From: Natrialba taiwanensis DSM 12281
Lineage (GTDB): Archaea > Halobacteriota > Halobacteria > Halobacteriales > Natrialbaceae
Direction of reading: 5' to 3'
DNA length: 54,976 nucleotides
Assembly (NCBI RefSeq): GCF_000337595.1
Contig: NZ_AOIL01000013.1
Coordinates: 88,624 to 143,599, forward strand
The translations under genes and the position numbers were made by a program. This document shows, piece after piece, positions 9,378 to 12,904 of this stretch. Numbering within the stretch: the stretch's first letter is position 1; each line of letters starts with the position of its first letter. The notes under the pieces are model-generated. The model searched no databases and was not told where the DNA came from. It saw nothing but the letters and a program-made list of their open reading frames with translations.

Positions 9378-11249
9378 TCAGCGATCCGCTCCGCGGTCTG
9401 ACAGCCCCGTCTTGAGATGCCCCAATAGCGCCGGGTGCAACGGGCCGTTCGAGCCGAGCAGCGCCGTGCGGTCGTCGGTCTCGAGTTCGAACGTGAACGG
9501 CTCGCCGCGTTCGTCGGTGATTGTTGCGCCGGCCGCCCGTGCGATGACGAGGCCGGCGGCGATATCCCAGGGATGGGTGTCGTGTTCCCAGGTCGCGTCG
9601 GCGCTGCCGCTCGCCAGATAGCAGAGATTGAGCGCGGCAGACCCGAGACGACGGACGCCGCGAGATTCCTGATAGAAGTGCGAGAGGAAGGTGCCGTCGG
9701 GGTCATACCCCGAGATGAGCATGCTCTCGTCGAGGCGGTCGCGGTCCGTCGTCTCGATCGGATCGCCGTCTCGTCGGGCACCGACCTCGGCGATTGCGCT
9801 GAACAGTTCGTCCGTTTCGGGGACGTAGACGACGCCCATCACCGGCGTTCCACAATCGAGAAGCGCGATCGAAACCGAGTAGTTCGGATTGCCGTGTGCG
9901 AAGTTCCCGGTTCCGTCGAGCGGATCGATAACCCAGGTGTAGCCGTCGGCACGGTTTCGCCGCGGTTGCTCTTCGGAGACGATGCCGTGCTCGGGGAACT
10001 CGTTGTCGATAACGGTCGTGATGATCCGGTTTGCCTGGTGGTCGGCCTCGGTGACGATATCCGATTTGTCGCTTTTGACGGTGATGGAATCGACCTGGCC
10101 GTGGAGTTCGCGCAGCGGCTCGCCGGCGGCCTCGGCAGCCTCTGTTGCAACCGTGCGGGCGTATTCGAGGGTCGTCCGGTCGTCACGTCCCGTCGACGGA
10201 ACAGCGGGCGAATCGGAACGGCTTCCCGTCTCACCGGCATCCGCCACTGAACTCGATTTCGCTGGGTTCGCTGGGTTCGCTGGGTTCGCTGGGTCCGCTT
10301 CCGTTGCCGTTGGTATCGCCGACGAGATCGTCCCAGAGTGTGGTCCTGATCCGAGAGCGCGGTCCGTCTCCGAACGCGGTGTCGACGGCTGATCGTCGAC
10401 GGCGCGAATTCCCCAGCCGAGTTTCTTCGCGATTGCGGTGAAGAAGTGGTCGTCGTAACTGGTTCGGACGACGTGCGCGAGCCTGTCGGCACCCGTCAAC
10501 AGGACGCTCTCGCCCGTTTCGAGGCGGGTGTGTGTCCGTCCGCCGTCGACCAGCAACGTTGCGGGGCCGCGGGTGACGATTCGGAGTTCGGTCGAGGGCG
10601 AGACGACGATCGGCCGGACGCCCAGCTGATGGGTGTGCAACGGAACGAGTTGCAGCGTGTGGTTATCGACCGGGTAGTGGATCGGGCCGTTCGCGGACAG
10701 CGAAATCCCGGTCGACCCGGTCGGCGTCGAGACCGCAAGTCCCGTTCCCTCGAACTCGCCGATGTACTCGTCATCGGCGTAGACATCGAGTTGCGTCACC
10801 TTGCTGTCGACGGGGTTTTCCGGCGGAACGTGCTTGACGGTCACGTCGTTGATTCCCGTCGCATCGACGCTCGAGCCGGTGACGGCGACCTGTTGGCGGC
10901 TGTCGACCTTTGCACGTCCCTGGACGACTTCATCGAGGGCGGCGTTGAGATCGTCGGGTTCGACGCGGGCCAGAAAGGAGAGGGTACCCGTATTGACTCC
11001 AAGTTGGGGCACGTTCCGCGGTGCAAAGGTCTTGATCCCCTCCAGAAAGGTGCCATCACCGCCGATCGTGATCCCGAGTGTCGCCCGGTTCGGATCGTAT
11101 CGCTCGTCGATCTCGTCGCCGACGTCGACCGTCGACAGCGTGATGTCACGCGCTGTGGTCCACGACTCGAGTCTGGCGACGACATCATCACTGTTGGGAC
11201 TGACGATCGCAATAATCTCGTCCGTCGTCGCGAGCCTGCGTCCTTGCAT
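9378..11249 (-). CDS. NAD kinase fused to an inositol-monophosphatase-family phosphatase
   Basis: 623 residues with two enzymes in one chain. Residues 1 to about 285 are an NAD(+) kinase: GGDGTFLEG (GGDG 63-66), GVNTGTLSFL, and STPTGSTGISLSANGP. Residues about 345-615 are an inositol-monophosphatase-family domain: IVTEADHQAN, IVSEEQ, the metal-binding WVIDPLDGTGNF (about 440) and WDIAAGLVIARAAGA near the end. The connecting segment (about 290-345) is low complexity with an ANP repeat. Fusions of these two families are known in archaea (Methanocaldococcus MJ0917, NADP phosphatase/NAD kinase), which suggests the second domain dephosphorylates NADP(H), so one protein could both make and remove NADP. 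To my recollection MJ0917 has the phosphatase first; here the kinase is first. Confidence 0.9.
   Translation of the reverse strand: MQGRRLATTDEIIAIVSPNSDDVVARLESWTTARDITLSTVDVGDEIDERYDPNRATLGITIGGDGTFLEGIKTFAPRNVPQLGVNTGTLSFLARVEPDDLNAALDEVVQGRAKVDSRQQVAVTGSSVDATGINDVTVKHVPPENPVDSKVTQLDVYADDEYIGEFEGTGLAVSTPTGSTGISLSANGPIHYPVDNHTLQLVPLHTHQLGVRPIVVSPSTELRIVTRGPATLLVDGGRTHTRLETGESVLLTGADRLAHVVRTSYDDHFFTAIAKKLGWGIRAVDDQPSTPRSETDRALGSGPHSGTISSAIPTATEADPANPANPANPAKSSSVADAGETGSRSDSPAVPSTGRDDRTTLEYARTVATEAAEAAGEPLRELHGQVDSITVKSDKSDIVTEADHQANRIITTVIDNEFPEHGIVSEEQPRRNRADGYTWVIDPLDGTGNFAHGNPNYSVSIALLDCGTPVMGVVYVPETDELFSAIAEVGARRDGDPIETTDRDRLDESMLISGYDPDGTFLSHFYQESRGVRRLGSAALNLCYLASGSADATWEHDTHPWDIAAGLVIARAAGATITDERGEPFTFELETDDRTALLGSNGPLHPALLGHLKTGLSDRGADR
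10261..10296. repeat. Four tandem 9-bp units inside the NAD kinase/phosphatase linker
   Basis: GCTGGGTTC repeated three times and then GCTGGGTCC, head to tail. It encodes the Asn-Pro-Ala repeats of the interdomain linker on the minus strand. Being a multiple of three, copy-number change would keep the frame. Confidence 0.95.
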
Positions 11250-12336: not shown

Positions 12337-12411
12337 GGGTTGGTGATCTAGTCCGGTTATGATACCTCCTTCACACGGAGGAAGTCGGCAGTTCAAATCT
12401 GCCCCAACCCA
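12337..12411 (+). tRNA. tRNA-Val (anticodon CAC)
   Basis: 75 nt. Acceptor stem GGGTTGG (12337-12343) pairs with CCAACCC (12404-12410), discriminator A. The anticodon stem CCTCC/GGAGG holds the loop TTCACAC with anticodon CAC, reading GTG. The T arm GGCAG-TTCAAAT-CTGCC is regular. CCA is not encoded. The 3' end is duplicated downstream. Confidence 0.97.
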
Positions 12412-12413
12412 CT
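12391..12413 (+). repeat. Copy 1 of a 23-bp direct repeat (tRNA-Val T loop to 3' end)
   Basis: The last 21 bases of tRNA-Val plus CT recur exactly at 12498-12520, 107 bp downstream. A duplicated tRNA 3' end is the usual trace of integrase-mediated insertion (att site). Confidence 0.85.
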
Positions 12414-12415
12414 AC

Positions 12416-12447
12416 TTCTGTCGCGAACAAAACCGTGAGCGACAGAA
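12416..12447 (+). terminator. Hairpin 1 downstream of tRNA-Val (covaries with hairpin 2)
   Basis: TTCTGTCGC (12416-12424) pairs with GCGACAGAA (12439-12447), 9 bp, around a 14-nt loop GAACAAAACCGTGA. It starts 4 nt after the tRNA, so it may serve tRNA 3' processing or termination, or be part of an att site. Confidence 0.6.
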
Positions 12448-12497
12448 TCGTCACGTTGGCCAGATTTGAATCAGGGAGCAGCTTCGCTGCGACTGTG

Positions 12498-12520
12498 GTT
12501 CAAATCTGCCCCAACCCACT
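12498..12520 (+). repeat. Copy 2 of the 23-bp tRNA-Val 3'-end repeat
   Basis: Exact 23-bp copy of 12391-12413 without the rest of a tRNA in front; the preceding bases do not form an acceptor or anticodon arm. Candidate attachment site. A third, decayed copy (GTTCAAATCTGCCACCACCT) follows near 12634-12653. Confidence 0.85.
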
Positions 12521-12523
12521 GAT

Positions 12524-12553
12524 TTTGCGCCGAACAATTCCGTGAGGCGCAAA
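12524..12553 (+). terminator. Hairpin 2 following repeat copy 2
   Basis: TTTGCGCC (12524-12531) pairs with GGCGCAAA (12546-12553), 8 bp, around a 14-nt loop GAACAATTCCGTGA. The loop differs from hairpin 1 at only two positions while the stem sequence is different but still fully paired. Confidence 0.6.
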
Positions 12554-12904
12554 TCCATTACGTTGGGCAGTTCGAACCAGACAAATCACAGCCCGGGAAG
12601 CAAACGAAGTGAGCGACCCGGAACGTCTTTGTGAGGTTCAAATCTGCCACCACCTTACTCACTACCTGAGTGCTATCTTTGGACTGCTGACGACGCAATT
12701 GACTGTCCCGCTGGATCTTTGATTGCTGGGTGCTGTCCCAGCGGTCCTAACGCCACCAGATAACCCACAAAGTGCCGTCCAGTCTCACTCCTGCCTCGCA
12801 CAATATTCATCAAACTGTCCAAAAGGACCGTTTCAGACAGTTTCGCTGACGGTCTCGATAGTAAACTAAATGGTTAAATATATGCGTCGCTAGTAGTCAA
12901 CCAG
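12554..12904. other. Gene-free stretch: decayed tRNA-derived repeat, palindrome and arsR promoter
   Basis: 12554-12660 contains a further degenerate unit: a CCGGG...CCCGG hairpin around a 19-nt loop and a third partial tRNA-Val 3' end. 12661-12811 shows no coding frame with haloarchaeal composition and nothing recognisable. 12812-12833 is a palindrome and 12874-12913 the arsR promoter/operator, listed separately. Confidence 0.6.
12812..12833. promoter_or_regulatory. 22-bp palindrome upstream of the ArsR gene
   Basis: AAACtGTCC-AAAA-GGACcGTTT has 8 paired positions each side with one mismatch pair. The outer AAACTGTC also pairs with GACAGTTT at 12836-12843. It is about 40 bp upstream of the arsR TATA box. 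Operator or small terminator; undecided. Confidence 0.45.

Follow-up and report, generated by a model that had tools for sequence, protein, structure and literature searches.

The gene for tRNA-Val(CAC) in the haloarchaeon Natrialba taiwanensis DSM 12281 is followed by an array of two short palindromic units. The array spans positions 12391 to 12656 of the stretch of DNA that we analyzed (54,976 nucleotides of contig NZ_AOIL01000013.1; hereafter, the window) and has the order F1-A1-F'1-B1-F2-A2-F'2-B2'-F3 (Table 1). F repeats the last ~23 nt of the host tRNA in direct orientation, F' repeats its T-arm in inverted orientation, and A and B are short hairpins. Each F-A-F'-B-F unit is ~110 to 135 bp long and lacks coding capacity. 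We propose, at roughly even odds (probability about 0.5), that the A hairpins are one module of a tRNA-anchored family of palindromic repeats resembling the repetitive extragenic palindromic (REP) sequences and bacterial interspersed mosaic elements (BIMEs), spread and reshuffled by recombination at copies of tRNA 3' ends. The two A hairpins were first noticed from the letters of the window alone. That original prediction was correct that they lie outside the tRNA and at tRNA 3' ends; however, it placed one after each tRNA-Val 3' end, whereas tRNA-Val(CAC) is the only tRNA near them and the second hairpin follows a partial copy, 23 nt of which are identical to the gene's own end. The larger unit was missed. 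An Rfam scan of the window matched only its three tRNAs, with no family above the gathering score for the hairpins or units.

Both A hairpins were confirmed with the predicted stems and 14-nt apical segments. Hairpin 1 has a stem of 9 bp (arms TTCTGTCGC and GCGACAGAA) around GAACAAAACCGTGA, and hairpin 2 a stem of 8 bp (TTTGCGCC and GGCGCAAA) around GAACAATTCCGTGA. As RNA, they fold at −16.5 kcal/mol (z = −5.8) and −15.0 kcal/mol (z = −3.9), respectively, and none of 200 shuffles gave an equally good fold. The folding energy of the F'-B-F2 block is −34.4 kcal/mol (z = −7.3), and the entire trailer has a z-score of −7.1. The apical segment had been taken for a fixed loop. Its sequence stands, but a plain loop it is not: GAAC-N6-GTGA consists of a tandem G.A/A.G mismatch, probably forming sheared G.A pairs to judge from the sequence, followed by two Watson-Crick pairs (A-T and C-G) and a hexaloop. 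Among 162 A hairpins gathered 3' of tRNA ends, these inner two pairs are complementary in 137 (AC/GT in 120 and the doubly changed GC/GC in 16), and the hexaloop is mostly AANNYC.

The claim that pairing is kept while the stem changes was borne out by the orthologous hairpins behind tRNA-Gln(TTG). In 40 distinct sequences, 94.8% of paired cells were complementary, against 78.4% after shuffling and at most 46.5% with slid partners. The covariation score was 0.58 (0.26 when shuffled), a value reached by none of 500 shuffles. The inner pair was A-U in 26 of the 40, G-C in 12, and G-U in 2, and it was never unpaired. Chance origin is ruled out by these slid-partner and shuffle controls, by the fold z-scores, and by the absence of control matches in the genome search below. 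A general haloarchaeal hairpin motif is likewise ruled out. Across 223 kb of the N. taiwanensis genome, the combination of a stem, tandem GA, 2 bp, and a 6-nt loop occurred in the two window hairpins and in only two unrelated places, and we therefore regard the A hairpin as close to tRNA-specific. All stemmed A copies found in this genome, which we scanned by pattern searches and in selected stretches, sit at tRNA 3' ends.

The family is widespread among haloarchaea. We searched for a T-loop followed after 12 to 40 nt by GAACANNNNCGTGA, with the same pattern reversed as a control. The pattern was present after tRNA 3' ends in 141 of 391 haloarchaeal genomes (44 of 86 genera), and the reversed control was never found. 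Neither of the findings that the original prediction named as refuting it was borne out: hundreds of further instances occur behind tRNAs in other haloarchaea, and the stems of relatives still pair. In a scan of public genomes, most haloarchaeal matches had stems, and nearly all matches elsewhere were stemless chance matches; neither the non-haloarchaeal matches that we inspected nor nine viral-contig matches had convincing stems. Units were absent from IMG/VR and phage collections. On plasmids, there were only two occurrences: a Natronorubrum megaplasmid has a chromosomal-type unit behind a tRNA-Gly, and a Haloarcula plasmid has a single B copy in a tRNA-Cys. Virus or plasmid cargo is therefore ruled out. 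The latter plasmid (Haloarcula halophila, NZ_CP119561.1; L279:5938-6059) carries 23 tRNA genes in an array, in the neighborhood of a B-type DNA polymerase and a TROVE/Ro-domain protein; within that array, a short hairpin together with a B2-type hairpin apparently splits the tRNA-Cys where T-stem and T-loop meet.

Within single genomes, at least one unit follows 19 of 44 tRNA genes in N. taiwanensis and 25 of 43 and 14 of 44 in two congeners, at a lenient threshold (F2 matching at 14 of 21 nt) that lets in a few false units; at a stricter 16 of 21, a foreign tRNA end passes in 3.6% of trials. Genomes hold 15 to 39 units each. In N. taiwanensis, the trailer of tRNA-Pro(GGG) is duplicated around an assembly N (C42:138400-139400, L241), making the one unit scored at this locus a probable assembly artifact. 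The unit behind tRNA-Gln(TTG) is present in 81 of 292 genomes of the class, across many families.

The F and F' segments fit the local tRNA, while B types are common to many isotypes. In 104 of 110 units, F2 is closer to the host tRNA than to other tRNAs. The host specificity of F' was hardly visible by free local alignment (mean rank 0.42), whereas anchoring the comparison on the T-loop gave a clear signal: in 111 of 112 units, base 57 of the T-loop in F' (A or G type) is that of the host, and agreement with the host at the neighboring T-stem positions is 69, 61, 48, and 45%, compared with 54, 36, 24, and 31% for other isotypes. A search for the 26-nt B2 core that set no tRNA condition found it in 49 of 101 genomes of the family. 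All 30 loci that we inspected are tRNA 3'-end units, 27 with an ARAGORN tRNA at most 600 nt upstream and 3 identified through their F copy. They involve 11 isotypes (Gly, Arg, His, Ser, Phe, Leu, Glu, Val, Cys, Lys, and Met).

The two hairpin modules are replaced independently of each other. Between congeners, A is retained and B swapped at Leu(TAA), Leu(TAG), and Asp, and B is retained and A swapped at Glu(TTC) and Tyr. Within one genome (G032), the B hairpins behind Arg(CCG), Arg(TCT), and Ser(TGA) are 92 to 96% identical; sharing of A at 85% identity or more is limited to isoacceptors. Inverted copies of the near-universal T-loop flank B, and acceptor sequence specific to the tRNA flanks A; recombination at the T-loop would therefore yield the pattern of exchange that we see.

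Unit number also differs among close relatives, with breakpoints in F. At tRNA-Val(CAC), there are two units in the window, one in the congener G186 (equivalent to the second unit of the window), and none in G350, and the flanks align. In G350, a 4.7-kb tyrosine-integrase element lies between two F copies in place of the units. At Arg(TCT), Tyr, and Lys(TTT), G186 has F plus flank where N. taiwanensis has F-unit-F plus flank, a difference of exactly one A-F'-B-F block. Four units follow Leu(TAG) in G032 (L460), the first and third of which are nearly identical in A-F'-B and represent a recent block duplication. For 35 isotypes, three congeners each have a single gene; the presence of units varies for 19 of these isotypes, and units occur in all three congeners for 6 and in none for 10.

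Table 1. Features of the tRNA-Val(CAC) array, with positions in the window.
Feature	Position	Strand	Evidence
tRNA-Val(CAC), host gene of the array	12337..12412	+	ARAGORN; Rfam RF00005, 60.5 bits
F1, first direct repeat, T-loop boundary to trailer (GTTCAAATCTGCCCCAACCCACT)	12391..12413	+	Repeat families D1/D2
A1 hairpin: 9-bp stem, tandem G.A, 2 bp, hexaloop AAAACC	12416..12447	+	Fold, covariation
F'1, inverted partial tRNA 3'-end copy (T-arm and part of acceptor)	12455..12473	-	Inverted repeats I1/I2; host coupling in 112 units
B1 hairpin (GGGAGCAGCTTCGCTGCGACTGTG), flanked by inverted T-loops	12474..12497	+	Fold; B type also behind tRNA-Trp and other tRNAs
F2, second tRNA-Val 3'-end copy, identical to F1 over 23 nt	12498..12520	+	Repeat comparison
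A2 hairpin: 8-bp stem, tandem G.A, 2 bp, hexaloop AATTCC	12524..12553	+	Fold
F'2, inverted partial tRNA 3'-end copy	12562..12579	-	Folds with F3
B2' hairpin, core CCCGGGAAGCAAACGAAGTGAGCGACCCGG, holding another tandem-GA hairpin	12580..12635	+	Fold; orthologous in congener G186
F3, third, degenerate tRNA-Val 3'-end copy (17/21), end of array	12636..12656	+	Repeat D2; flank aligns with unit-free G350 allele

We infer that the arrays are dispensable REP/BIME-like elements and not fixed regulatory parts of tRNA genes. New units and the exchange of B cassettes would arise by recombination at the near-universal T-loop (GTTCRAATC), and units would be lost through F × F deletion. The agent could be a recombinase, site-specific or acting on single strands, that recognizes the folded sense strand, or else general recombination. 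The F' and F copies may be held to the host sequence by local palindrome and direct-repeat correction. On the question of strand, it is the tRNA-sense strand that carries the G.A pairs (its antisense counterpart would have T.C), G.T outnumbers A.C at positions 2 to 6 of the A stems (39 versus 14), and both A and the F'-B-F2 block fold better in the sense than in the antisense direction. The G.A pairs and the G.T excess suggest, without being decisive, that the sense strand folds, either as RNA or as displaced single-stranded DNA.

Several observations weigh against this proposal. The units have not been linked to any recombinase or transposase, and excised or circular forms of them are not known. 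The alleles do not tell gain from loss, since all empty ones could be F × F deletions. A simple cut-and-paste element would not give a host-matched F' at every tRNA. The breadth of the Gln(TTG) unit resembles long retention, possibly for a function. As for the strand, a bias to the sense side would be equally expected from a function at the RNA level, and the T.G excess at A-stem positions 6 to 8 may come from a constrained T-run. In perfect-stem controls, moreover, the GA loop alone gave most of the sense/antisense energy difference of A; because these controls differ nearly as much, we do not take the energies as proof of RNA.

The main rival is a role for the units as RNA within the 3' trailer of the pre-tRNA, where A and the F'-B-F2 block would stabilize the trailer, act as a decoy for tRNase Z, or bind a protein. 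Its best support is the retention of the Gln(TTG) unit across many families, together with the strong covariation. Sense-strand structure with covariation is indeed what we found, although the energy comparison is confounded by the loop. The tandem G.A on the sense strand, the tolerance of G.U over A.C, the better sense folding, and the conserved AANNYC hexaloop also fit. However, the units are duplicated, swapped, and allowed to decay, and the perfect-stem control takes away most of the weight of the energy gap, and we consider a host RNA function unlikely.

It is also rather improbable that the units are a mutational by-product, generated, without dedicated enzyme or function, when replication or repair of a highly transcribed gene repeatedly switches template at its quasi-palindromic T-arm. 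Such switching accounts for the fit of F' and F2 to the local tRNA, for the boundaries at the T-loop, and for duplications and losses via F, and Haloquadratum offers well-documented cases of deletion through short direct repeats (PMC3119063). It leaves unexplained the tandem-GA motif and conserved hexaloop that the A hairpins share, the near-identical B cassettes at unrelated tRNAs, and the restriction to haloarchaea.

We give little credence to a third alternative, in which the units are pieces of tyrosine-integrase attachment (att) sites, with F as the core and A, F', and B as integrase arm sites or relics of deleted elements. The direct duplication of a tRNA 3' end is a feature of archaeal tyrosine-integrase att sites (PMC8371274, PMC3119063), and F, identical between F1 and F2 over 23 nt, covers the usual att sublocation from the T-loop to the 3' end. 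Integrase elements use the same F at tRNA-Pro, tRNA-Ala, and tRNA-Val. Yet A, F', and B are missing from the ends of the elements that we examined at tRNA-Pro and at tRNA-Val (G350), the tRNA-Pro hairpin lies beyond attR, and the virus and phage collections hold no unit. This rules out arm sites at these elements and speaks against the integrase recognition element of the original prediction. Furthermore, the units are short and noncoding with a fixed A-F'-B interior, whereas a short conserved interior, with no element lying between A and B, is not the remnant expected of decayed elements. Two integrase elements of the N. taiwanensis genome were seen in passing. One, of 10.4 kb and with a tyrosine integrase, occupies tRNA-Pro(TGG) (C51, L248:761-11219), with a degenerate A hairpin after attR and outside the element. 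The other, of ~5 kb, lies between copies of the tRNA-Ala(GGC) 3' end (C28, L247:10596-15839) and has an integrase-like frame with one TGA stop (C28:61066-61605).

That hairpin A, with its T-rich 5' arm, terminates the tRNA transcript is very improbable, and the suggested terminator-factor element is unsupported: short T-runs do directly follow many of these tRNAs, and in Haloferax T-stretches terminate efficiently and one hairpin motif gives 59% termination (PMC7237163), but many A-less tRNAs of the same genome also have T-runs, none follows hairpin A, a terminator hairpin would be expected at most tRNA genes rather than at the proportions given above, and F', B, and F2 are not accounted for.

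Among known systems, the tRNA-anchored units are nearest to REP/BIME arrays and to the tyrT repeats of E. coli. Bacterial REP/BIME sequences and REPINs, with their RAYT transposases, are short intergenic palindromes in arrays of alternating orientation, variable between strains and possibly moved as folded single strands (PMC2817692, PMC3116915, PMC6006769). The haloarchaeal units are likewise short palindromes in alternating-orientation arrays with many copies per genome. They differ from REP/BIMEs in not being dispersed in intergenic space: the 30 B2 copies that we inspected and the stemmed A hairpins of N. taiwanensis all lie at tRNA 3' ends. Every unit also holds direct and inverted copies of its tRNA, and the units are archaeal. 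We do not call them members. No RAYT gene is linked to the units, although no search was aimed at such genes. In E. coli, the 178-bp repeats of tyrT (rtT RNA) stand in tandem after a tRNA gene, each with the last ~19 nt of that tRNA. The haloarchaeal units are similarly post-tRNA repeats with tRNA 3'-end copies; the tyrT repeats, however, are known from one locus in enterobacteria and are not known to have an inverted copy or A/B hairpins or to be common to several isotypes. Insertion of the casposon/Cas1 type duplicates a tRNA 3' end as its target, whereas the interior of a haloarchaeal unit carries an inverted copy of the target itself.

Neither REP/BIME arrays nor tyrT repeats join tRNA specificity, inverted host copies, and exchangeable hairpins, and there is a real chance that the haloarchaeal units form a separate class. 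A more specific version is possible but doubtful: a new class of modular element in which a haloarchaeal recombinase would read the folded tRNA-sense strand and use the T-loop as the crossover, building combinatorial arrays of hairpin cassettes at a large share of the tRNA genes in a genome and always re-creating an intact tRNA. We found no account of the repeat family in the open-access literature, a coverage that leaves aside subscription journals and preprints. A family that stands behind a third to over half of tRNA genes, copies the ends of its hosts, and changes within a genus seems to have escaped description in a well-sequenced class. It bears on tRNA ends as targets of mobile DNA, on the movement of short archaeal palindromes, and on the evolution of tRNA 3' flanks and trailers.

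Elsewhere in the window, positions 9378 to 11249 hold one frame of 623 amino acids in which an N-terminal ATP-NAD kinase is fused to a C-terminal domain of the inositol monophosphatase family.
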